A program made the position numbers and the translations under genes. Source: Paenibacillus aceti (GTDB lineage Bacteria > Bacillota > Bacilli > Paenibacillales > Paenibacillaceae). Taken from it: a stretch of DNA of 64,000 nucleotides. Numbering within the stretch: position 1 is the stretch's first letter; the number at the start of each line of letters is the position of its first letter. The notes under the pieces were generated by a model, which was given only the letters and a program-made list of their open reading frames with translations, was not told the DNA's origin and searched no databases. The stretch is taken from the NCBI RefSeq assembly GCF_003614185.1, contig NZ_KZ987724.1, positions 4,284,533-4,348,532 on the forward strand, given 5' to 3'. Shown in pieces: positions 13,672-49,198 of this stretch.

Positions 13672-13885
13672 AAACCAGTCTCGCTGAATCTCCGAGTATG
13701 GAGAACGGGGGAACCGATTGCGACAAACTACCAAAGTGAACACGGATTTCAATGTCGCGAAGGATTTCTTTGTAAGGGTCTATGGGGTGAATTCGAGGTC
13801 ATTGCGCCATGAGCGAATGAACTGAGAAAGGGCGACTCTCTACGTCCTAACCCGACAGCTAACCTCGTAGGCGTATCCAGAGAGG
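13672..13885 (+). promoter_or_regulatory. Cyclic di-AMP riboswitch (ydaO/yuaA type)
   Basis: The sequence carries the hallmarks of the ydaO class: CGCTGAATC near the 5' end, a hairpin then GGGGGAACC, GGGGTGAATTC in the middle, AAGGGCGAC, and the diagnostic 3' block CCGACAGCTAACCTCGTAGG closing with GCG. An extra stem, CGACA/TGTCG (about 13721-13756), is inserted as in B. subtilis versions. The class is an OFF switch that senses c-di-AMP, and a terminator follows at 13924. The downstream gene is a cell-wall (3D/G5) protein, a common ydaO target. Boundaries are approximate. Confidence 0.9.
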
Positions 13886-13923
13886 CAACAACTCGTGCAT
13901 CTATACATCATCGATTTAGTCCG

Positions 13924-38167: not shown

Positions 38168-38363
38168 GTGTTTCGCGGATTCTATTTTTGTCGTCTGTCC
38201 TCTTTAGCCGACAGGTTATTACGCAATAAAACGATATGCAGCAGATAAATCAGTGATGCAGCGCGTTAAAATATGGACGAGCGATGCGAACATAGGCACG
38301 TATCAGGGGGACGCAGGCTTAGGTGGGCTTGTATTCGTGATGATTCGTGTAGCCCTCTCAATT

Positions 38364-38429
38364 TGTCGGAAATTTCTTTGGGTCATGCTCCGGCATATGA
38401 CAAACTTTCCAGATTATCCTACTTATAAT
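38364..38429 (+). promoter_or_regulatory. Spo0A-type promoter of spoIIE with 21-bp spacer
   Basis: ATGACA (38397-38402), a 21-bp spacer and TATAAT (38424-38429) precede spoIIE by 40 bp. A near-consensus Spo0A box, TGTCGGA, lies at 38364-38370, and TTTGTCA (read on the minus strand) overlaps the -35. B. subtilis spoIIE and spoIIG also use over-long spacers that need Spo0A~P. Confidence 0.65.
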
Positions 38430-38468
38430 GGGACATACCTAACAAATTGGATAAGGTGGTGCCAGTTA

Positions 38469-40967
38469 ATGGAGAAGTGGAATGTCATTACGTTTCCCGG
38501 TTTGAAGAGAATGAGAGGACGGGCCAAGGCGAAGGAGAGAGGCATATGGATGAATGCCCCGTTTCTGGAGCGGGCAGCTCAGAGCTTTACGGTGAATAAA
38601 TGGAATTTTCTTTTTCTGGTGATGGCATTTTTACTAGGGAGAGCTACAATTTTGGACGAGCTATCCCCATTCGCTGTCGCTTTCTTCGCGGTGATGATGT
38701 TCATGCGTCGCGAGAGTGCGATGTCCGCCGGATTTCTGATGGTGCTCGGAGCCCTTTTATCGCCTGTCCAGCATGGCGTATGGATCGCTGCGGAGTTGCT
38801 TATTTTTTACCTGATTCATAAAGGATTGGAAGCCTTCGAGCGAGCGGACATCTCCTACGCTCCGTTAATTGTATTCTTCAGTACCTTCTTCGTAGGCTTG
38901 TTCCAGGCGGTCGTCGGGCCCTCATTGACCTGGTACGCGATGATGATGATTGTGGCGGACTCCGTCCTCAGCTTCGTGTTGACGCTGGTCTTCATTCAGT
39001 CCGTGCCGATCTTCTCGCTTCGGAGAAAAGGAAAGCATCTGAAGAATGAGGAGATCTTGTGCTTGGTCATTCTGCTGGCCTCGATGATGACGGGAGCAGT
39101 CGGGTGGGAGATTTCCGGTCTGTCGATTGAGCATATCATGTCCAGATATTTGATCCTGTTATTCGCTCTGGTTGGCGGTGCCTCCTTAGGGGCTTCGGTG
39201 GGCGTAATTACGGGCCTGATCCTAAGCCTGGCCAATATGACAGCGCTCTATCAGATGAGTCTGTTAGCCTTCGCGGGCATGCTGGCAGGCATGCTGCGGG
39301 AGGGGCGCAAATGGGCTGTAGCTCTGGGCATGCTGCTGGGCTCATCCATCCTATCGATATATTTAACAGGACCAGCCGAGGTTATGTCCTCGACATGGGA
39401 GAGCTGTGTAGCGATCTTCTTCTTCTTGATTACCCCCAAGAGCGTAGTCAGCGTGATCGCCAAATACGTGCCTGGTACCCAGGATCATATTAAATCACAG
39501 CATGAGTATGCCAAGCGGGTCAGGGAGGTTACTGCCGGACGAGTGGCCCAGTTCTCCCAAGTGTTCAAGCAGCTATCGCGTAGCTTCGGGCAGATGGCTA
39601 GCAGTGGCGAGATGTCCAAGCAGAGTGAAGAGGTCGGCCATTTCATGAATGCGATCACGGAAGAGGCTTGTTCGAATTGCTCGCGCCGCAAGCTATGCTG
39701 GGATGGTAACTTCTATCAGACCTATAAATTGATGACAGAGATGATGACGGCCGTAGAGGAGAACCCGGAGGTAACGAAGCGGGATCTACCTCCGAAATGG
39801 AATAAACTCTGCCTCAAGAGTGATCAGGTCCTCGAACTGATGAAGCAGGAGTACAACCTCTATCAGAATGATATGCACTGGAAGCGGCAAATATACGACA
39901 GCAGACAACTTGTCGCGGAACAACTCTCGGGCGTCTCGCAGGTGATGGAGGATCTGGCCCGGGAAATCCAGCGCGAGGGACAAGCTATGTATAAGCAAGA
40001 GGAGCAAATCAGGGATGCGCTCGACAAGATGGGTTTGTCCATTCAGAACATCGATATTATCAGTCTGGATCATGGCAATGTGGAGATTGAAATTGTCCAT
40101 GCTTATACCCGCGGCTTTGACGAGTGCCGAAAGATTATAGCCCCCTTGTTATCGGATATTGTGGACGAGCATATTACGGTCGTCAGGGAGAATATGCCGA
40201 CAGGCAAGGATGGATTGGCCACGGTGACCTTCGGCTCGGCCAAGACTTTTGAGGTCACAACGGGAGTCGCCGCAGCGGCTAAGGGCGGTGATTTACTGTC
40301 AGGCGACAGCTTCAGTGCGATGGAGCTGGGAAATGGCACGTATGCCGTGGCGATCAGTGACGGAATGGGCAATGGAGAGCGGGCGCGGCTGGAGAGCGAC
40401 ACGGCGCTTGGGATTCTTGAGCAATTGCTGCAATCGGGGATGGATGAGAAGCTGGCGGTGAAATCGGTCAATTCGATTCTGATGCTTCGTTCTCCGGATG
40501 AAGTTTACGCCACGGTCGATATGGCTCTGATCGATGAGTTCTCGGCCCAGACCACCTTTCTGAAGATCGGCTCTTCACCGAGCTTTATCAAGCGGGGGGG
40601 TGAGGTTATCCCGATTACGGCCAGCAATCTGCCGATCGGCATTATTCAGGACATCGAGATCGACCTTGTGACCGTGCAGCTGCATCCTGGGGACATTCTG
40701 ATTATGATGACGGATGGAGTGTATGATGCTCCGGGCTATGCGGTTAATAAGGAGCTATGGATTAAACGGGTGATCTCGGAGGTTTATTCGGATGAGCCCC
40801 AGGAAATTGCAGATTGTCTGCTCGAATCGGTGATCCGCTATCAGAAGAATGTGATTCATGATGATATGACCGTAGTAGTAGCCAGAATTGATCATCTGCT
40901 GCCTCAGTGGTCAACGCTGCATATACCGGGAATATCCCGGCTGGAGCGGCCGCGTACGGTGAGCTGA
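38469..40967 (+). CDS. spoIIE: Stage II sporulation protein E, PP2C phosphatase
   Basis: The 832-aa protein matches SpoIIE in length (B. subtilis 827). It has about ten N-terminal transmembrane helices (FLFLVMAFLLGRATI, LLIFYLIHKGLEAF), a central region that binds FtsZ, and a C-terminal PP2C domain with the metal motif SDGMGNG and MTDGVYDAPG. It dephosphorylates SpoIIAA to free sigma-F in the forespore. ATG 38469 has AAGGTGG 9 nt upstream; frames extending to ATG 38253 would run through its promoter. Confidence 0.95.
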   Translation: MEKWNVITFPGLKRMRGRAKAKERGIWMNAPFLERAAQSFTVNKWNFLFLVMAFLLGRATILDELSPFAVAFFAVMMFMRRESAMSAGFLMVLGALLSPVQHGVWIAAELLIFYLIHKGLEAFERADISYAPLIVFFSTFFVGLFQAVVGPSLTWYAMMMIVADSVLSFVLTLVFIQSVPIFSLRRKGKHLKNEEILCLVILLASMMTGAVGWEISGLSIEHIMSRYLILLFALVGGASLGASVGVITGLILSLANMTALYQMSLLAFAGMLAGMLREGRKWAVALGMLLGSSILSIYLTGPAEVMSSTWESCVAIFFFLITPKSVVSVIAKYVPGTQDHIKSQHEYAKRVREVTAGRVAQFSQVFKQLSRSFGQMASSGEMSKQSEEVGHFMNAITEEACSNCSRRKLCWDGNFYQTYKLMTEMMTAVEENPEVTKRDLPPKWNKLCLKSDQVLELMKQEYNLYQNDMHWKRQIYDSRQLVAEQLSGVSQVMEDLAREIQREGQAMYKQEEQIRDALDKMGLSIQNIDIISLDHGNVEIEIVHAYTRGFDECRKIIAPLLSDIVDEHITVVRENMPTGKDGLATVTFGSAKTFEVTTGVAAAAKGGDLLSGDSFSAMELGNGTYAVAISDGMGNGERARLESDTALGILEQLLQSGMDEKLAVKSVNSILMLRSPDEVYATVDMALIDEFSAQTTFLKIGSSPSFIKRGGEVIPITASNLPIGIIQDIEIDLVTVQLHPGDILIMMTDGVYDAPGYAVNKELWIKRVISEVYSDEPQEIADCLLESVIRYQKNVIHDDMTVVVARIDHLLPQWSTLHIPGISRLERPRTVS

Positions 40968-41155
40968 AAATGTACAAAGCAGATTATATAAAGAGAAAAT
41001 AGGTCTTAAGTAGCGAATCTCTAGGTGGTATTATTCAAATAATGTACACAATTCTGGAATTAAATATCATGGAAATGTTTTGAAATTCATAGTAAGATTA
41101 TGATTGTCGTTTTGTCGAAATTTAGCAGGTGGGTCCACTAAACCTAATTAAATAA
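40968..41155. other. Leader region before the c-di-GMP riboswitch
   Basis: AT-rich, no gene seen. A perfect Spo0A box within TTTTGTCGAAA (TGTCGAA at 41113-41119) lies about 45 bp before the riboswitch. TATGAT at 41099-41104 is a possible -10 without a clear -35. If used, the box would sit over the start site, as at abrB. Confidence 0.4.
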
Positions 41156-41240
41156 TTTTTTGGCAAAGCTATCGAAAGGTAGTGACGCAAAGCTATAGGG
41201 ACTAATTCTTCTTTTGGGGGATATGTCAGCCAGTTGCTCT
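41156..41240 (+). promoter_or_regulatory. Cyclic di-GMP-I (GEMM) riboswitch
   Basis: The conserved GEMM-I core is clear: GGCAAAGC, a GAAA-capped hairpin (CTATC-GAAA-GGTAG), GACGCAAAGC, TAGGGACTAA, then after an extended P2 stem ATGTCAGCCAGTTGC, which closes with GCAA near 41164. A terminator follows at 41246, so it is a transcriptional switch. It lies 150 bp before a chemoreceptor gene. Confidence 0.93.
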
Positions 41241-41245
41241 TAAAT

Positions 41246-41285
41246 AAGGTAACCTATAGTTTGCTATGCGGTTATCTTTTTTTTT
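41246..41285 (+). terminator. Riboswitch expression-platform terminator
   Basis: AAGGTAACC (41246-41254) pairs with GGTTATCTT (41270-41278), with one G-T pair and an inner TATAG/CTATG stem, followed by a run of T to 41285. Confidence 0.85.
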
Positions 41286-41395
41286 GCCCAATTTTTAGTG
41301 GATGGCCATCGTGAAGGGAGATTACGGAAAAATAGATTACTGATCGGAAGTACAAACGATTCCAACTCACTATTGGGATGAAAAGGAGACTGAAA

Positions 41396-43147
41396 ATGAA
41401 GATTTCTGGTTTTATGAACCGTTTAAGTATTGTCACTAAGAATATGATGTTAACGAGTCTATCTGTTCTAATGACAGGTGTAATCTTGATTACAGCCAGC
41501 TACTATATTCAAGGCGCTGTTCTGACGAATCAATTGGAAGAGAACTCCCAGCGGGTTATGGAAGCCTGGAAGGATAAAATTAGTCCAGAGGATGCCAAGG
41601 CAGCGATGACGGATACCGATCGAAACTCGGAGCTACAGAAGAAACTGACGAAGTTGTTCGATGAATTATCGTCAACTCATCCTGAGGTGGCCCAGGGCTA
41701 TATTTTTGGCGCGAAGGTAGAGAATAACAGTACACAGATGATCGCTTTCTCGACGGATATCCTGGATATGTTCGAGGGGGAGAACCTGTTCCTGGGTGAT
41801 ATGCTGGGGCAGCCCGCTTACCATGTGAAGGGCGTCGAAGAAATGCTGAAGACGAAGCAGATTACGTTCACGAAGCCTTATAAAGATGATTATGGAATTT
41901 GGTTGACAGTGCTTTATCCTGTTCAGGATAAGAGCGGCCAGGTTTTCTCATACATAGGCATGGATTTCGATGCTAGCCTGATATTGACCGGCCAGAGGGA
42001 TTTGCTGAGATACACGGTACTCTCGCTTATCGTGATTCTGATCGTTATTTTGTCGTTCCAATTTTTCACGACCCGGAGAACCTTTGCACCGGTGAAGGAT
42101 CTAATGGAGGGTTTGGATAAGTTATCCAAGAACGATTTCAGCGTACGGCTTAAGACGGATGAGAGTGAGCTTGGTCAGGTCAATGCGATCTTTAATAAGA
42201 TGGCTCAGAATATGAATGATCTGGTGTCGACGATTAAGACAGTTTCAATCCAATCGGCGGATCAATCGAAGATATTATTCGATACGCTGGAGGAGAATCA
42301 TCAGACATCAGCGGCTATCGGCGCCAATATCGAGGAGATCTCGGAGAAGGCATCCCGTCAGAGCAAGGCGATCGCTGAGAGTGTTACTTCATTGGAGGAG
42401 ATTAATTCAGGCGTGGGCACGATTGCTAACAGCACCGCGGCTTTGTCGGATGTCTCCATGCAAATGAAGGATCGGTCGGAGGTCGGGCGAGATAATATCG
42501 GAGGCGTTATTGAACAAATGGACGCGATCCAACAGTCGGTGCAGCAATCCGTGGTATCGATTGAACAATTGCAGAAGCGCTCTGGACAAATCGAAGAGAT
42601 CGTTCGGGTGATTACACAGATTGCAGAGCAGACCCATCTGTTGTCATTGAACGCCAGCATTGAGGCAGCCCGGGCCGGTGAAGAGGGCCGTGGATTCGCT
42701 GTTGTAGCAAATCAAGTGAAGAAGCTGGCTGAAGAATCCGCCAAGTCAGCGGATCAAATCGCCGATCTTGTCCATTTCATACAGAAGGAAACCCTGACAG
42801 CTGTTGCTGCTATCAGTGAAGGGGATCGCAATGTTACGGAAGGTATCCAAATTGTGCAGAAGACAGGAGAACTCTTCGGTACAATTCTGGACGCGAACGA
42901 CGCGTTCACGAGCCAGATCCAGGAAGTATCTGCTGCGACTGAGGAAATGGTGGCAGAGACTGAACAGATCACCGTGACGATTAAGCAAATTGCCGAATAT
43001 GCCGAACGAAATGCAGTTATTTCTGGGCAAATCCGCGAGAGTGCCTCGGAACAGCGTGCTTCTGCAGATAACATTATGAATACCGCTGAGCATTTGAATG
43101 AAATCTCCGGGAGCTTGGAGAAATTGGTTAAGGGCCTGACCCTGTAA
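41396..43147 (+). CDS. Methyl-accepting chemotaxis protein
   Basis: The 583-aa receptor has an N-terminal transmembrane helix (MMLTSLSVLMTGVILITASY), a ~180-residue extracellular sensor resembling a Cache-type fold (FSTDILDMFEGENLFLGDML, YPVQDKSGQVFSYIGMDFD), a second helix (YTVLSLIVILIVILSFQFF), a HAMP region, and the signalling domain with the conserved hairpin tip NASIEAARAGEEGRGFAVVA. ATG 41396 has AAAGGAGA 6-7 nt upstream; the ATG 41378 overlaps it. Expression appears gated by the c-di-GMP riboswitch. The ligand is unknown. The gene is absent at this point in B. subtilis. Confidence 0.93.
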   Translation: MKISGFMNRLSIVTKNMMLTSLSVLMTGVILITASYYIQGAVLTNQLEENSQRVMEAWKDKISPEDAKAAMTDTDRNSELQKKLTKLFDELSSTHPEVAQGYIFGAKVENNSTQMIAFSTDILDMFEGENLFLGDMLGQPAYHVKGVEEMLKTKQITFTKPYKDDYGIWLTVLYPVQDKSGQVFSYIGMDFDASLILTGQRDLLRYTVLSLIVILIVILSFQFFTTRRTFAPVKDLMEGLDKLSKNDFSVRLKTDESELGQVNAIFNKMAQNMNDLVSTIKTVSIQSADQSKILFDTLEENHQTSAAIGANIEEISEKASRQSKAIAESVTSLEEINSGVGTIANSTAALSDVSMQMKDRSEVGRDNIGGVIEQMDAIQQSVQQSVVSIEQLQKRSGQIEEIVRVITQIAEQTHLLSLNASIEAARAGEEGRGFAVVANQVKKLAEESAKSADQIADLVHFIQKETLTAVAAISEGDRNVTEGIQIVQKTGELFGTILDANDAFTSQIQEVSAATEEMVAETEQITVTIKQIAEYAERNAVISGQIRESASEQRASADNIMNTAEHLNEISGSLEKLVKGLTL

Positions 43148-43197
43148 TATGGTGTTTTATTTAGATAAATAGAGAGAGAATTAAGGAGTGATCAGTT

Positions 43198-46100
43198 GTG
43201 AGCACCATACTGATGGATCAGAAAACCCGGGAATATTGGCTTAGAGAGCTACAGCCGCCATTATCCGGTTTTCATATTCATACGGACTACCCTAATCTGA
43301 CGATAGCTAGTGAGCTTAGAAGAATAACCTGTGCGCTGGACATGGACCCATCACAACTGGAACGAATCGCCGGGAGTGGCGACATTCAGACCTGGCTGCT
43401 AGCCTGTTACTACGTATTCCTGTATCGAATGAGTGGAGAGCAGGATCAAATCGTCGGGGTGAAGGGACCGGGCGGCAGATTGCTGCCCTTGCGCCTACAT
43501 CTTGAAGCGGAGATGTCCTTCAGCCATCTGCTATCGACTATAGCGGAGCGGCTCAATCCGTTATATGCAGCTAGTCTGCCTATCAAGGAGATAGAGGAGC
43601 TTATCTCGCAGTCCCCTGTGGTGCAGACGATATATGGCCAGGATGATACTTATGAATCAAGCCGTCTTAATTGGTATGTGCATAGTGAGAAGCAGCAGTG
43701 GGTGGTGGAGATCGCCTACGCGGGCCAGCTATTCAAGGAGAGCACGATTCGTAAGTTCGTCAGCCATTTTCAATGTATTGGAACGGCAGTATTGGCGGAT
43801 CCGGATATGGCTGTGGGTGACATCTCTATCATGACGGATGAGGATCGATCAGCCTATGAGACGCTTAATAATACGAGCAGACAGTGGGGCGTAGACTTAA
43901 CGATTACGTCCATGCTCAAGGGAGCGGTTGAGAGATTTTCTGACCGGATGGCGCTATCGTCGGCAGAGTGGAGCCTGACGTATGAGCAGCTAGACCGTCT
44001 GTCCAATCAGGTTGCCCACGCCTTGACCGACCAGGGGCTGGATAAGGGCAACTTCGTAGCGATATATATGGAGCGCAGCATGGAGGCTGTCGTCAGCATG
44101 CTTGGTGTCTTGAAGGCCGGTGGAACTTACATTCCGCTTGATCCAGAGCATCCGGATGACCGGAATCAGTACATCATCGAGGATACCCGCTCGCGGATCG
44201 TCCTGACCAAGGGAGCTTATATCACCAAGCTGCAGCCGCTTGTGGCTGATAGAGCAGAAGAGGTAAAGCTGCTTTGCTTCGATCTGGAGCAATTTTCTGC
44301 CTATTCGGCCCAGCCTTGCCAGGTGTCCATCGAGCCGGATGATGTGGCCTATACGATCTATACTTCCGGGACGACGGGAAGACCGAAGGGCGTGCTGATT
44401 CGCCATGTCGGTGTTGTGAATCTGTCGATGTCGACGATAGATCAACTGCAATTTTCAGAGAAAGATGTCATTCTCCAGTATTCTACCTTTAGCTTCGATG
44501 CATCGGTATTCGATATATTCAGCGCACTATGCTGCGGGGCGAGACTGCATTTATTGTCCAATGATCAGCGTTATTCGGTCGATAGCTTCACAGCAGCTAT
44601 ACAGGACACCGGAGCGACCCGGATCGGAATTCTGCCGACCGTCTTCTTCAATCAATTGTCCACTTATCTTACCGAGGAAGAGGCCCTGAAGTATCAAGTG
44701 ATCAAGAGCTTCGTTATAGGTGGAGAGGCGCTTCCTGGAGAGTCGGTGCGTAATCTACAGAGGAAGCTGCGGCATCAGCCGTTCATCGTCAATGCATATG
44801 GGCCGACAGAGGTAACAGTTGTTACAACGACCCATATGATCAAGGAGCCGATCCCTGAAGATCTGACCACGGTCAGCATCGGTCGGCCGATTGCCAATTA
44901 TGAGGTGCTGATCGTCAATGAGCAGGACCAGCTCTGTCCACTAAATGTGATGGGTGAGCTGTTGATCCATTCCGTCGGACTGGCTAAGGGTTATTTAAAT
45001 CTGCCTGACAAGACGGAGGAGGCCTTTATTGTTGATCCGTTGAATCCGGCTTCCGGCAAGAGATTCTATCGCTCTGGCGATCTGGTCCGGCTGCTGCAAG
45101 ACGGCGGTATTGAGTATATGGGCAGAAAGGATCTGCAGGTGAAGATCCGGGGATACCGGATTGAGATCGGAGAGATTGAGGAGAATCTGGCCAAGCATGA
45201 ACTGGTCAAGGACGTCGCGGTTATCGCCAAAGAGGATGAGAGCGGGGAGAAGGTACTGCTCGGCTTCTATACTTCGAAATCTGGCATAGAGATCAGCAAG
45301 CAGGAGCTGGCATCTTTCCTGAAGACTAAGGTTCCGGCATATATGGTTCCGGGACATTTCATCATGCTGAATTCGATGCCTTTATCGCCGACAGGGAAGA
45401 TCGACCGTAAACGGTTAGGAACCTATGATATTCCTGCGATAGTGGAGGAAGATTCCGAATATGTGGCGCCAAATACAGAGCTGGAGCGGGAAATCGCTGC
45501 GGCCTGGGAGAGATCGCTTCACCGCAGTCGTGTCGGTCTGCATGATAATTTCTTCGAAATTGGCGGGCATTCCTTGAAGATATTAGAGACGCTGGTGCTG
45601 CTGAAGCCGAGCTTTCCAAAGCTGAAAATCAATGATTTCTTCCTCTATCCAACGGTTCATTCTATGGCTGGACGTGTAGTAGAACTGGAGAATGAAACTG
45701 TAGAGGAGGATGCCTTTGCAGGTGTGGAAGAGATCCGGGATTTGGCAGAATATCCTCGTATGTTCGGCGGGGCGAATCTAAGGACTGCGGCTGCCCAGCA
45801 TCATATTCTATTGACCGGGGCTACCGGATATTTGGGTTCCTCACTGCTCTATCAATTGCTTCAGACCTCGGAGGCGACGATATATTGTCTAGTACGGGCA
45901 AAAGAGGGCGAAGACCCCTATCATCGTCTCGCGGAAGTTATGCAGGGCTACTACGGGCCGGAGATTGTCCGTGAAATGGAGGCACGGGTTGTTGTCGTCT
46001 GCGGCGATTTGCAGCAGCCCGACCTGGGCTTGAGTGCGCAGGATGCAACACTGCTTAGACAGCAGCTTGACTCCATTATCCATTGTGGAGCCGAGGTGAA

Positions 46101-46914
46101 GCACTTTGGCGCGGCGGATTATTTTGCTAAGGTGAACGTTGAGAGCACGGACCGTCTGCTTGATCTGGCGCGCGGGAAGCAGGTGCGTTTCCATTACGTA
46201 TCCACGCTGGGGATTCCTGAGGATCTGGCCTTCCTGGGACGGTGGGAGCCGTTTATCGAAGGATGTGGCTATGATGCGGTTGCTACCGAGAATGTATATA
46301 CGAACAGTAAGCTCGAAGCGGAGAAGCTGGTGATTCAGGCCTGTGAGGAAGAGGGAGTGGCTGTCTCGGTATATCGGGTAGGTAATCTGTCCTGTTACTC
46401 CACTACGGGCGTATTCCAGAAGAACATCGACAATAATGCGTTCTATCGGATGCTGAAGGCGATGCTGCTGCTTGGCAAGGCGCCGAGCGTGCACTGGGAG
46501 GTAGACTTCACCCCTGTGGACTATGCAGGCGCGTCTATATCGGCCTTGGCTCTGCAGGAGAAGAGTGTCGGCAGACTGTTCCATATCTGCAATCCGGCGC
46601 AAATCGCTTATACCGCGATGGTCGATATTCTCCGTGAGTACGGCTACTCTATCGATCTGCTGGAATGGCCTGCCTATGAGGCGTGGCTGCTCGATCCGAA
46701 CGAGCCGAAGGATCAGGCTGGCATGGAGCTGGCGATGGCGCAGCTGGAGGGAGATGGAGCGAAGAACTCGATCTACCGCTTCGCCTGCCCTCAGACGAAT
46801 GAATTCCTGGCGGATACGAATGTCACCTGTCATGTTCCCGACGGCGAATTTTTCAGACGCATGATAGATTATGCGGTGCGCATCGGCTATTTCCCTGCTC
46901 CTCAAGCACAGTAA
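43198..46914 (+). CDS. One-module NRPS-like protein (truncated C, A, T, terminal reductase)
   Basis: The 1238-aa protein has four parts. Residues 1 to ~215 resemble only the C-terminal lobe of a condensation domain and lack the catalytic HHxxxDG. An adenylation domain follows (~225-740) with YTSGTTGRPKGV, FDASVF, NAYGPTE and YRSGDLVR. A carrier domain (GGHSLKI) has its phosphopantetheine serine at S792. A thioester-reductase domain (~865-1238) has LLTGATGYLGSS and YTNSK (Y1034, K1038). It should load an amino acid, or similar acid, and release it as an aldehyde or alcohol. By eye the specificity positions read D-A-F-G-V-G-A-V-V, giving no sure substrate. GTG follows AAGGAG by 9 nt. It lies 50 bp after the chemoreceptor with no terminator between. 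Confidence 0.9.
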   Translation: MSTILMDQKTREYWLRELQPPLSGFHIHTDYPNLTIASELRRITCALDMDPSQLERIAGSGDIQTWLLACYYVFLYRMSGEQDQIVGVKGPGGRLLPLRLHLEAEMSFSHLLSTIAERLNPLYAASLPIKEIEELISQSPVVQTIYGQDDTYESSRLNWYVHSEKQQWVVEIAYAGQLFKESTIRKFVSHFQCIGTAVLADPDMAVGDISIMTDEDRSAYETLNNTSRQWGVDLTITSMLKGAVERFSDRMALSSAEWSLTYEQLDRLSNQVAHALTDQGLDKGNFVAIYMERSMEAVVSMLGVLKAGGTYIPLDPEHPDDRNQYIIEDTRSRIVLTKGAYITKLQPLVADRAEEVKLLCFDLEQFSAYSAQPCQVSIEPDDVAYTIYTSGTTGRPKGVLIRHVGVVNLSMSTIDQLQFSEKDVILQYSTFSFDASVFDIFSALCCGARLHLLSNDQRYSVDSFTAAIQDTGATRIGILPTVFFNQLSTYLTEEEALKYQVIKSFVIGGEALPGESVRNLQRKLRHQPFIVNAYGPTEVTVVTTTHMIKEPIPEDLTTVSIGRPIANYEVLIVNEQDQLCPLNVMGELLIHSVGLAKGYLNLPDKTEEAFIVDPLNPASGKRFYRSGDLVRLLQDGGIEYMGRKDLQVKIRGYRIEIGEIEENLAKHELVKDVAVIAKEDESGEKVLLGFYTSKSGIEISKQELASFLKTKVPAYMVPGHFIMLNSMPLSPTGKIDRKRLGTYDIPAIVEEDSEYVAPNTELEREIAAAWERSLHRSRVGLHDNFFEIGGHSLKILETLVLLKPSFPKLKINDFFLYPTVHSMAGRVVELENETVEEDAFAGVEEIRDLAEYPRMFGGANLRTAAAQHHILLTGATGYLGSSLLYQLLQTSEATIYCLVRAKEGEDPYHRLAEVMQGYYGPEIVREMEARVVVVCGDLQQPDLGLSAQDATLLRQQLDSIIHCGAEVKHFGAADYFAKVNVESTDRLLDLARGKQVRFHYVSTLGIPEDLAFLGRWEPFIEGCGYDAVATENVYTNSKLEAEKLVIQACEEEGVAVSVYRVGNLSCYSTTGVFQKNIDNNAFYRMLKAMLLLGKAPSVHWEVDFTPVDYAGASISALALQEKSVGRLFHICNPAQIAYTAMVDILREYGYSIDLLEWPAYEAWLLDPNEPKDQAGMELAMAQLEGDGAKNSIYRFACPQTNEFLADTNVTCHVPDGEFFRRMIDYAVRIGYFPAPQAQ

Positions 46915-46930
46915 TTCAGTTTCAATTAAA

Positions 46931-46979
46931 AAAGGGCGTGCCCCGAAGTCACCCAGACTTTGTGGGCAACCCCTTTTTG
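46931..46979 (+). terminator. Terminator after the NRPS-like gene
   Basis: An A-rich start, AAAGGG with GTGCCC, pairs with GGGCA and CCCCTTT, followed by TTTTT. The loop is large. Confidence 0.7.
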
Positions 46980-47006
46980 TTATTTAGCGGCTGCACGAAT
47001 TCCAAA

Positions 47007-47185
47007 ACTGCAAATCTGCAGGCTTTATCGCCCGAACTCACCTGTTCTTGGTAAATTCCTGTAAATCTGCAGGCTTTTCTGCTGTTTTCTGCGAAATCAG
47101 GTCCGAGTTGGGGAAATACCTGCATTATCGCAGGAATTTGCCATTATGGGTCGCTGTAGTTGCGAAATTCCTGCAAAAATGCAGG
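47007..47185. repeat. Third cluster of CCTGCA-N4-TGCAGG palindromes
   Basis: Units are at 47007-47022 (first base differs, AATC), 47058-47073 (CCTGTA-AATC-TGCAGG), 47119-47134 (CCTGCA-TTAT-CGCAGG) and 47170-47185 (perfect, AAAA). Spacing is again 51, 61 and 51 bp. The order of flanks is reversed relative to the other two clusters, so this is an inverted copy of the block. Confidence 0.88.
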
Positions 47186-47194
47186 TTTGAAGAG

Positions 47195-47392
47195 TCGGAC
47201 TTTTAACGAAACAAGGTATCGCTATTTGCGCCCCAAAGGGGCTTTGCAATTTCTAACGAAACTGGGGGAGTGCTATCTGTGCAAATCAGGGGTCTAAATT
47301 GCGATTTTCCCTCGAATAACGATATGGTGTTTCCTTAGATTTTATTTATTACTGTTTTTGGGCAAATAGCGCTCTGGAGTTTCGTTAGAGGA
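47195..47392. repeat. TTTCGTTAGA/AACGAAAC repeat family
   Basis: Several imperfect copies occur in both orientations: AACGAAACAAGGTATCGCTA near 47203, TCTAACGAAACT near 47252, GGTGTTTCCTTAGA near 47324, and AAATAGCGCTCTGGAGTTTC then GTTAGAG near 47363. The same core is seen near 356-386 and at 18329-18354. No gene is seen here. Confidence 0.6.
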
Positions 47393-47526
47393 TGAATTGC
47401 AATCCGGAAGTGTCTATGTACTGTCTTTGAACGGCCAATAGTTCTACTTGACTAGTTTGAATCCTATCAATCATGGAAATGATAGAGATAAGAGAGTTGC
47501 AGTAACTATTGGAGGCGAGAATAGCG

Positions 47527-48273
47527 ATGAAGCAAATTATGTTGATTACGGATGGTTGTTCCAATGTTGGCGAGAGTCCGGTGATGGCGGCTGCATTGGC
47601 TCGGCAGGAAGGAATCACTGTTAATGTGGTAGGTATTGTCGATTACGGAGCGATCGGTGAGCTCGGCAGCATTGAAATCGAGGAGATCGCCAGAGCAGGT
47701 GGGGGGATGAGCCGACTGACAGGCACGGAGAAGCTGGCGCAGACGATGCAGATGCTGACCCGCAAGACTGTGGTCCAGACGATCCAGCAGGCGGTCAACA
47801 AGGAGCTGAAGCATATTCTAGGAGAATCCTCGGTCGAGGTGCTGCCGCCGGAACAGCGTGCTGAGGTCGTCGAGGTCATTGACGAGCTTAGCGAGAATAG
47901 TCCGCTGCAGGTCGCTCTGCTCATCGACGCCAGCGCCAGTATGAAGCCGAAGCTGGCTGCGGTGGAGGAGGCGATCCGCGATATGATGCTGAGCCTGGGG
48001 GCGAGGCAGGGCAGCAGTCAATTAGCGGTCTTCCATTTCCCGGGTGCGCATAGCGGGGAGGAAGCGGTACTCGATCTCGGTTGGACCAGTAATCTGGACT
48101 CTGCCCGCTCTATTTTCCAACGTCTTACGATGAGAGGGGCGACTCCGACCGGCCCCGCGCTCTTGAAGGTGATTGAATTCTTCCGTTATGGTAAACTGAA
48201 TGGACATAGAGGAATTCATGGTACGGATGAGAAAGGTGAAGGAGAAGCGATGCTTGGTGACTACGTCGTCTAA
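47527..48273 (+). CDS. yabS: VWA-domain protein YabS
   Basis: The 248-aa protein resembles YabS. It begins KQIMLITDGCSNVGESP and has a second half with the metal-ion-dependent adhesion (MIDAS) motif DASASM and a later GATPTGPALL. VWA proteins bind partners through a metal ion; here the partner may be the adjacent kinase. ATG 47527 follows GGAGG by 11 nt; a TTG at 47509 overlaps the ribosome binding site. Its end overlaps the kinase gene by 20 bp. Confidence 0.88.
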   Translation: MKQIMLITDGCSNVGESPVMAAALARQEGITVNVVGIVDYGAIGELGSIEIEEIARAGGGMSRLTGTEKLAQTMQMLTRKTVVQTIQQAVNKELKHILGESSVEVLPPEQRAEVVEVIDELSENSPLQVALLIDASASMKPKLAAVEEAIRDMMLSLGARQGSSQLAVFHFPGAHSGEEAVLDLGWTSNLDSARSIFQRLTMRGATPTGPALLKVIEFFRYGKLNGHRGIHGTDEKGEGEAMLGDYVV

Positions 48274-49198
48274 TTTGACCCTGCCGCCAGGGACGATTGT
48301 AACCGGCCGTTGGAAGGGTGAACGCTATTTGATACAGCGTCTGCTTGGACAGGGGGCTAACGGGGTTGTCTATTTGGTGAAGCAGATGAAGAGCGCAAGG
48401 CTATATGCTCTCAAGATGGGGTTTGATACCCTCGATCTGCAATCTGAAATCAACGTCCTCAAGGCGTTACAGCGAAAAAGGCGAAAGAACGGTTCTACAG
48501 GCAAAAGGGATCTCTCATATCTGGTAGAGGTGGATGATTACTCTCATCAGGGCAAGGAGATTCCTTTCTATGTTATGCGCTATGTGAAGGGTGAGCCGTT
48601 ACGCTCCTTCTTGACACAGCAGGGCAGCAGATGGCTGAATGTCGCCGGGTATTCGCTGCTGCAGCAGCTGGAAGGGCTGCATGATCTGGGGTTTACCTTC
48701 GGGGATTTGAAGCCGGAGAACGTCCTGGTCTCGCCCTATGGCGAGGTGGAATTGATCGATTACGGCGGAGTCAGCGAGAATGGCCGGAGCGTGCGGCAAT
48801 TTACAGAGTGGTATGATCGCGGCTACTGGGGCGCAGGAGGACGGACAGCGGAGCCGTCCTATGATTTATTCTCGTTCGCCGTTGTATGCATCCATTTACT
48901 GGCGGAGCCTTTGCTTAAGGAGGCTGCTATCAATCTGCCGCAGACCCGCAGCAAGAGCGATCTGCTGACGATCGTACGGAGAGAGTCCGCCCTGCAGCCT
49001 TATCGCAAATGGCTCGAACGGGCGCTGGAGGGGAAATTCCGTAGTACAGCGGAAGCGCGCCAGTTATGGAGGGAACAGGTCCAGAAGCAAGTTCTACAGC
49101 GTAAGTCCAAATCACCGACTCCGACGTGGATGATGGGGGCTTTTACGCTATCTGTGCTTTTACTTCTCTGCGCCTTATTTTTCACATTCTGGAATTAG
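48254..49198 (+). CDS. yabT: Ser/Thr protein kinase YabT (membrane-anchored)
   Basis: The 314-aa Hanks-type kinase has Gly-loop GQGANGVVYLV (32-42), the ATP-binding lysine K54 in YALKM, the catalytic loop FGDLKPENVLV (the usual HRD reads FGD), and DYG instead of DFG. A C-terminal transmembrane helix (GAFTLSVLLLLCALFFTFW) ends the protein, without extracellular sensor domains. This matches YabT, a DNA-stimulated kinase acting in spore development. I prefer TTG 48254 (AAGGAG 9 nt upstream, family length); ATG 48218 is possible and would add 12 residues. It overlaps yabS by 20 bp. Confidence 0.88.
   Translation: MVTTSSNLTLPPGTIVTGRWKGERYLIQRLLGQGANGVVYLVKQMKSARLYALKMGFDTLDLQSEINVLKALQRKRRKNGSTGKRDLSYLVEVDDYSHQGKEIPFYVMRYVKGEPLRSFLTQQGSRWLNVAGYSLLQQLEGLHDLGFTFGDLKPENVLVSPYGEVELIDYGGVSENGRSVRQFTEWYDRGYWGAGGRTAEPSYDLFSFAVVCIHLLAEPLLKEAAINLPQTRSKSDLLTIVRRESALQPYRKWLERALEGKFRSTAEARQLWREQVQKQVLQRKSKSPTPTWMMGAFTLSVLLLLCALFFTFWN

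Follow-up and report, generated by a model that had tools for sequence, protein, structure and literature searches.

A c-di-GMP riboswitch ahead of a conserved chemoreceptor and aminoacyl reductase gene pair in Paenibacillus aceti: a candidate autochemotaxis cassette

The riboswitch, the two genes and their layout

A 64,000-nucleotide (nt) stretch of the 5.6-Mb genome of Paenibacillus aceti (G000 in our set; RefSeq assembly GCF_003614185.1, contig NZ_KZ987724.1, positions 4,284,533 to 4,348,532; hereafter the window) carries, downstream of spoIIE, a GEMM-I riboswitch of the cyclic diguanylate (c-di-GMP) type, followed by a chemoreceptor gene and a gene for a multidomain reductase. Judged from genome comparisons, the two genes form a cassette that is a real, conserved and old unit shared with many soil-dwelling relatives, with three genes where a gene resembling those of phosphopantetheinyl transferases (PPTases) has been added. 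A self-made chemotactic signal is its most likely, but unproven, function. The features of the locus, in window coordinates, are as follows.

38253-40967, upstream of the riboswitch: spoIIE
41111-41119, + strand: perfect 0A-box-like site TTTGTCGAA, 5′ of the aptamer
41152-41241, + strand: c-di-GMP-I (GEMM-I) riboswitch aptamer (Rfam RF01051)
41246-41278, + strand: intrinsic terminator, expression platform (-12.9 kcal/mol, run of nine T)
41378-43147, + strand: open reading frame (ORF) of 589 amino acids (aa) for a chemoreceptor (methyl-accepting chemotaxis protein, MCP), with Pfam HAMP and MCPsignal
41483-42001, + strand: predicted extracellular sensor domain, Cache/PDC-like (weak Pfam matches, model topology)
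43198-46914, + strand: putative adenylation-thiolation-reductase (A-T-R) aminoacyl reductase, 1238 aa, GTG start
43219-43848, + strand: condensation-domain remnant, C-terminal half
43924-45399, + strand: adenylation (A) domain (TIGR01733, 411 bits against a cut-off of 317)
45490-45675, + strand: thiolation (carrier, T) domain with FFEIGGHSLK (PF00550)
45802-46890, + strand: thioester reductase (R) domain with TGATGYLG and YTNSK (TIGR01746, 222 bits against a cut-off of 213)
46929-46978, + strand: terminator at the operon end (-28.7 kcal/mol, z -5.7)

The aptamer is full-length (RF01051 model positions 1-87 of 87), and its score of 66.4 bits (E 8.4e-11) exceeds the gathering score of 35; our own aptamer model R1, built in part from the window aptamer, gave it 94.5 bits. 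Only 1 of 200 dinucleotide shuffles folded as well as the terminator hairpin that follows. The riboswitch and terminator that a previous, sequence-only reading had placed ahead of the chemoreceptor gene were thus confirmed. A promoter-like block (ATGG.AA ... TAGTAA.AT, at about 41070-41105) lies some 60 nt 5′ of the aptamer, and was seen again in many of the 19 leaders that were aligned.

The first gene encodes an MCP, with scores of 142.3 bits for MCPsignal (cut-off 34.6) and 33 bits for HAMP (cut-off 25), in a genome that also encodes a CheA domain (PF02895), as did all seven genomes checked for such a domain. Its likelier start is the ATG at 41396, judging from AAGGAG at 41383-41388. The predicted sensor part showed an alpha-beta topology in an AlphaFold2 model computed from 27 sequences. 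It gave a weak PDC/dCache match (E 0.015, below the Pfam cut-off), and among 83 sensor sequences PDC_1 matched 28 and dCache_1 13 at E up to 1.

The second gene, preceded by AAGGAG at 43183-43188, had been described as a one-module nonribosomal peptide synthetase (NRPS) with a terminal reductase. This holds for the A, T and R domains, all of which exceeded their cut-offs, but not for the condensation part: the condensation profile was matched only at positions 192-452 of 456, and the HHxxxDG motif was not found in the first 400 aa of any of the 29 aligned enzyme proteins. The enzyme thus lacks the HHxxxDG-bearing condensation domain of a canonical NRPS elongation module, and "one-module NRPS" should be read as A-T-R with a condensation remnant. 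From its domains and the GGHSLK and YTNSK motifs, it is best named an A-T-R aminoacyl reductase. Its best family match, over residues 139-837, is the aureusimine synthetase AusA (NF047350), a reductase-released NRPS. AusA has two modules whereas the window enzyme has one, and the score of 641 bits lies far below the cut-off of 2500 for that equivalog family.

Only 50 nt (43148-43197) separate the two genes, and a scan of this gap found no promoter-like or terminator-like site; its fold was no better than that of shuffled sequences (44 of 200 equally good). The nearest terminator-like match on the + strand, a 5-pair stem at 43253, lies inside the enzyme gene, and matches of that kind occur near chance level (12 found, 8.7 expected). 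After the enzyme gene comes the strong terminator at 46929-46978, which none of 200 shuffles equalled, so that the operon layout proposed earlier was borne out. Likewise, no terminator-like hairpin was found between the genes in any of the 32 riboswitch pairs scanned. Over 88 pairs, with start codons picked by script, the median gap was 75 nt, and 63 of the 88 gaps did not exceed 100 nt. These data make it highly likely that the riboswitch and the two genes form one transcription unit, and joint control of receptor and enzyme by c-di-GMP is well supported by the sequence.

Occurrence and control of the pair

In two initial searches covering 99 relatives, receptor and enzyme matches lay side by side. 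We then drew 393 genomes of the order, counting the enzyme at E <= 1e-200 and the receptor at E <= 1e-75. The enzyme was found in 131 of them, and in 127 of these the receptor lies directly upstream. Adjacency came from the match lists in 103 genomes (four receptor rows being taken from the search of the 99 relatives); of the remaining 28, 24 loci were fetched, and every one shows the receptor gene 5′ of the enzyme gene in the same orientation. That leaves four exceptions, namely G024 and three members of a single genus (G067, G074 and G078), whose enzymes, at loci L071, L072 and L073, carry the adenylation pocket code DAYPSGLAVK. Homologs of the two genes are therefore found together, as the sequence-only reading would require, and chance neighbourhood as an explanation of the pair can be rejected on the 127 of 131 adjacencies. 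A broken copy in Paenibacillus sp. D2_2 (G031) was considered as a case of loss; as its neighbour tilS likewise gives just a partial match, a sequencing error is likely, and this copy was not used as evidence.

A draw over the phylum found the enzyme in 6 of 398 genomes, one of them outside the order, and in the family of that genome it was found in 3 of 101. All three of these genomes carry the receptor, the enzyme and a PPTase-like gene. Such a gene lies directly downstream of the pair in seven loci, three recognised by Pfam and four by similarity to those three. The position after spoIIE, also part of the earlier proposal, is true of some loci and not of the rest; the pair persists at other genomic places and without the riboswitch. 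Among the literature matches listed, in a collection with few subscription journals, no title or abstract opening described the pairing.

In a first batch of 18 loci, 17 gave an Rfam match to GEMM-I 5′ of the receptor gene, the exception being the distant pair L056; in a second batch of 15 loci there were two, namely G031 and G024, in the latter ahead of the enzyme. Our own model, built from 24 aptamers (18 from the window's clade), found 32 aptamers in 91 loci, 26 in the window's clade and six in genus g42; both of the two g42 aptamers submitted to Rfam were confirmed. With this model, the loci of the three genomes from the other family scored 84-88 bits. Overall, GEMM-I precedes 34 of the 90 pair loci examined, in three lineages, a set that was chosen rather than drawn, is weighted towards the kin of the window and leaves many other pairs outside. 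It is also present at G024, where only the enzyme remains, and at G030, where only the receptor does. Six pairs near the window's clade (G230, G356, G318, G277, G332 and G234) gave no riboswitch with our own model and/or Rfam. In a tree of 89 A-T-R sequences, obtained by a quick method, with some long branches and without the third riboswitch lineage, the riboswitch label requires four changes and occupies two clades that lie apart.

As to the sign of the switch, a hairpin followed by a T run lies 3′ of the aptamer in all 19 aligned leaders (-12.9 to -23.4 kcal/mol). In the window, the 5′ arm of the terminator complements the aptamer segment AGCUAUAGGGACUA, and the segment AGCUAUAGGGACU can pair with that arm at -14.2 kcal/mol (4 of 200 shuffles equally good). 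In the third lineage both pairing sides differ in sequence yet pair strongly (-15.4 to -18.1). Such an alternative pairing between aptamer and terminator predicts an OFF switch, as ligand binding would free the terminator. The pairing clearly beat shuffles in nine of the 19 aligned leaders, where no more than 14 of 200 did equally well. Other results tell against OFF: in the remaining ten leaders the pairing was matched by 34 to 126 of 200 shuffles, and over 36 leaders the own pairing beat swapped pairings in only 20, and g42 showed hardly any such preference. Furthermore, the c-di-GMP-I riboswitch Bc1 of the Bacillus cereus group, which like ours stands with a terminator ahead of a chemoreceptor gene (mcpE), was reported to turn a reporter on in B. 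subtilis (PMC11218506). It differs in having two terminators, and the part of that report available to us mentions no biosynthetic enzyme. The antiterminator pairing is too weak over all leaders to prove OFF, which is therefore kept as a probability: high c-di-GMP probably switches both genes off.

The window also carries a perfect Spo0A box, as the sequence-only reading had noted. TTTGTCGAA occurs three times in the window (0.59 expected; 3 of 100 shuffles reach that count). Its core TGTCGAA, which we take to be the 0A box, stands at the window's position in only 4 of the 19 aligned leaders, and a box outside the aptamer was seen only in the window and its three nearest relatives, so that conservation of the site as a leader part of the operon was not borne out. 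Without dereplication, 16 of 36 riboswitch leaders of 450 nt hold TGTCGAA, at least two of them inside the aptamer; five of the six g42 leaders are among the 16, with the motif after the terminator. An unmasked count of 13 of 47 was likewise inflated by the motif inside two aptamers, and the aptamers were masked for a recount. With near-copies also removed, TGTCGAA remained in 2 of 16 riboswitch leaders (18 of 400 shuffles had as many). It was found in 9 of 31 dereplicated upstream regions free of the riboswitch (0 of 400 shuffles), where it ranks first of 2914 7-mers with at least three G or C; for comparison, it occurs in 2 of 44 regions of 300 nt downstream of the enzyme. Spo0A control of the riboswitch-free pairs is thus plausible from motif counts.

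Probable coupling of receptor and enzyme, and the putative signal

The search of the 99 relatives gave no receptor match in G024, where the riboswitch lies immediately 5′ of the enzyme gene. The G024 enzyme has changed catalytic residues: it departs at 10 columns that do not vary among the other 28 rows, and the A-domain Asp and the reductase Tyr are among these; other rows show 0 to 9 such departures, the higher numbers being in rows that are distant or on long branches. Conversely, G030 has no enzyme, either in that search or at its locus, and its receptor shows a mean identity to 16 clade members of 42% in the sensor and 59% in the signalling domain. The corresponding values for the paired receptors of G002, G090 and G064 against the same clade are 54-59% and 59-61%.

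Receptors usually conserve the signalling domain more than the sensor. Nine distant pairs compared with the window gave 35-41% for the sensor and 28-38% for the signalling domain, the sensor being at least as well conserved in eight of the nine. Between G000 and G015 the cassette receptor shows 73% in both parts. As a control, 12 of the 13 other G000 receptors and all 18 others found in G015 were taken, yielding nine reciprocal best pairs, five of them with a scorable outer part, with sensor/signalling identities of 30/67 (L182), 26/34 (L185), 71/60 (L186), 54/64 (L187) and 59/89% (L191); the L185 match is too weak for an ortholog. The pairing and these sequence changes together make functional coupling of receptor and enzyme very probable.

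Coupling could in principle take place inside the cell and without a diffusible signal, the enzyme or its aldehyde acting on the receptor or on the state of its signalling. The 127 of 131 pairings and the small gaps would fit such an action. No modification site of this kind is known to us, however, and the distant pairs keep their predicted outer sensor at least as well as the signalling part (the 8 of 9 above), which makes an intracellular route very improbable.

What the two genes share might also be limited to the conditions of their expression (motility, low c-di-GMP or Spo0A control), the product being a volatile or defence compound and the receptor sensing something unrelated. A riboswitch or 0A-like boxes in front would indeed explain joint expression, and P. 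polymyxa makes many pyrazines when fed valine (PMC6955855), so that pyrazines need not be chemotactic signals. The adjacency is kept, though, with or without the riboswitch and after spoIIE or elsewhere, and losing one partner accompanied a change in the other in both cases studied. A merely shared regime is accordingly considered improbable.

What the enzyme makes can be guessed from its A-domain pocket. The window enzyme has the code DAFGVGAVVK, 13 of 24 riboswitch rows of the window's clade have DAYGVGAV[VA]K, the six g42 rows have DALG[TI]GAV[VI]K and 32 rows without riboswitch have DAWTTAVV[AC]K. The last of these resembles the Phe code of GrsA/TycA, and for one domain of this type TycA was the best solved match after the two-module LgrA entries. 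The codes of the riboswitch rows (DAYGVGAVVK/DALGTGAVVK) resemble a Tyr code. From these resemblances the substrate is somewhat more probably than otherwise an aromatic amino acid, and an aromatic amino aldehyde is our guess for the product. A valine-derived pyrazine, as in P. polymyxa, is not favoured, since the codes look aromatic.

A receptor for the enzyme's substrate, or for an environmental relative such as an aromatic amino acid from roots, with the enzyme converting the same compound, would account equally well for the 127 of 131 pairings. Many Cache receptors bind amino acids, and the A pocket looks aromatic and keeps the Asp that binds the amine. On the other hand, sensing proteinogenic amino acids needs no dedicated co-encoded enzyme, lineages differ in A code but have similar sensors, and an A-T-R enzyme beside a PPTase-like gene, as in seven loci, looks like a production line rather than catabolism. 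We regard a shared substrate as unlikely, if less so than the shared regime.

The alternative that we prefer is that the receptor senses the enzyme's own product. In this mechanism the A domain would charge the carrier with an alpha-amino acid, which is most likely aromatic, and the R domain would release an amino aldehyde (or alcohol), possibly followed by dimerisation to a pyrazine. The product or a derivative would leave the cell and serve as the receptor's ligand, so that cells would steer by the signal of their own lineage, while c-di-GMP would set both genes together through transcription termination, probably off at high c-di-GMP, in the sessile state. The dN/dS ratio (nonsynonymous to synonymous substitution rates) of the enzyme, 0.09-0.14 in five genome pairs, speaks for this mechanism. 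The identity of product and ligand was only an idea in the sequence-only reading. Because the two genes stay together where the riboswitch is missing and at other places in the genome, and because the remaining partner changes after a loss (one genome each), we infer, at about even confidence, that the product or a derivative is the ligand. The chances that an aromatic amino-aldehyde maker and a receptor for its product are produced together under c-di-GMP gating seem similarly balanced. The broadest form of the proposal is tentative and falls somewhat short of even: an autochemotaxis cassette of a synthase and its own chemoreceptor, under a c-di-GMP riboswitch in three lineages or other control, possibly Spo0A, in which aromatic amino aldehydes, or dimers of these, would form a new family of bacterial chemotactic signals.

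Several observations weigh against this interpretation. The pair is kept in lineages with different pocket codes, so that the ligand may differ between them or may not be the product. The three genomes of genus g27 (G074, G078 and G067) have the enzyme without the receptor, and 13 of the 140 genomes with a receptor match (of the 393) have no enzyme match; these are G030 and 12 weaker receptor matches (1e-82 to 1e-93), which may be paralogs, though the true pair of G051 scores in the same range. In 5 of the 88 pairs, none with a riboswitch, a terminator-like hairpin lies between the genes. The partner-loss cases amount to one genome each, G024 and G030. The dN/dS ratio of the enzyme was not raised in G024 (0.089); relaxed selection was therefore not seen there by this measure, which would fit a recent loss of the receptor. 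Compared with the window alone, the paired G002 gives 47/59% and the unpaired G030 40/59% (sensor/signalling), so that their contrast is one of degree. Finally, when 16 paired receptors from the window's clade are compared with the window, the sensor equals or exceeds the signalling domain in conservation in only 6, and the control receptor L186 (71% outer, 60% signalling, G000 against G015) is as sensor-conserved as the cassette receptor. Both refute the notion that sensor conservation is unique to the latter.

Related systems share parts of the proposed arrangement. The Pvf/Ham systems of Pseudomonas and Burkholderia use an NRPS (PvfC, or HamD with its reductase domain) to make a small signal, via an aldehyde in the case of Ham; unlike the window pair, they have no co-encoded chemoreceptor mentioned in the parts of the papers available (PMC10194917, PMC11659414). 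According to the same partial sources, the pvf cluster also encodes the N-oxygenase PvfB; none lies beside the window pair, whose neighbours are spoIIE, a VWA gene, a kinase gene and tilS. Escherichia coli resembles our proposal in steering by a self-made signal, autoinducer 2, as far as the accessible part of the report describes it (PMC5056481). If the product is the ligand, the cassette would be a chemotaxis system with signal maker and receptor as one genetic unit under c-di-GMP, and signal production would be tied to the choice between swimming and settling. For autoinducer 2 in E. coli, receptor and synthase are not known to form one cassette, nor is a c-di-GMP riboswitch known to be involved. 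Ligands are not known for most chemoreceptors, nor products for many reductase-released NRPS-like enzymes; with 127 of 131 pairings, the receptor's ligand and the enzyme's product are likely each other's answer, with a short list of candidate compounds.

Neighbouring genes and other riboswitches

Of the neighbours in the window, spoIIE, the VWA gene and the kinase gene were assigned by Pfam and the tilS ORF by eye. The VWA-domain ORF and the protein-kinase ORF overlap (47509-49198) and lie between the cassette and tilS, an order (cassette, VWA ORF, kinase ORF, tilS) seen in many loci of the genus. The intergenic region after the operon (46990-47400) contains repeated CTGCA-type motifs, recognised by eye.

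The genome holds seven GEMM-I copies, that of the cassette included. One of them (L083, 6291-8322) precedes a second chemoreceptor gene and then a CheW-like gene, and two tandem GEMM-I pairs and a single copy (L081, L082) lie near large surface-protein-like genes, all these genes being labelled by eye. From these contexts, the cassette looks like a member of an apparent motility-and-attachment regulon of G000. Elsewhere in the window, a c-di-AMP (ydaO/yuaA) riboswitch was found at 13672-13889 (76.4 bits) and a 5S rRNA at 83-199.

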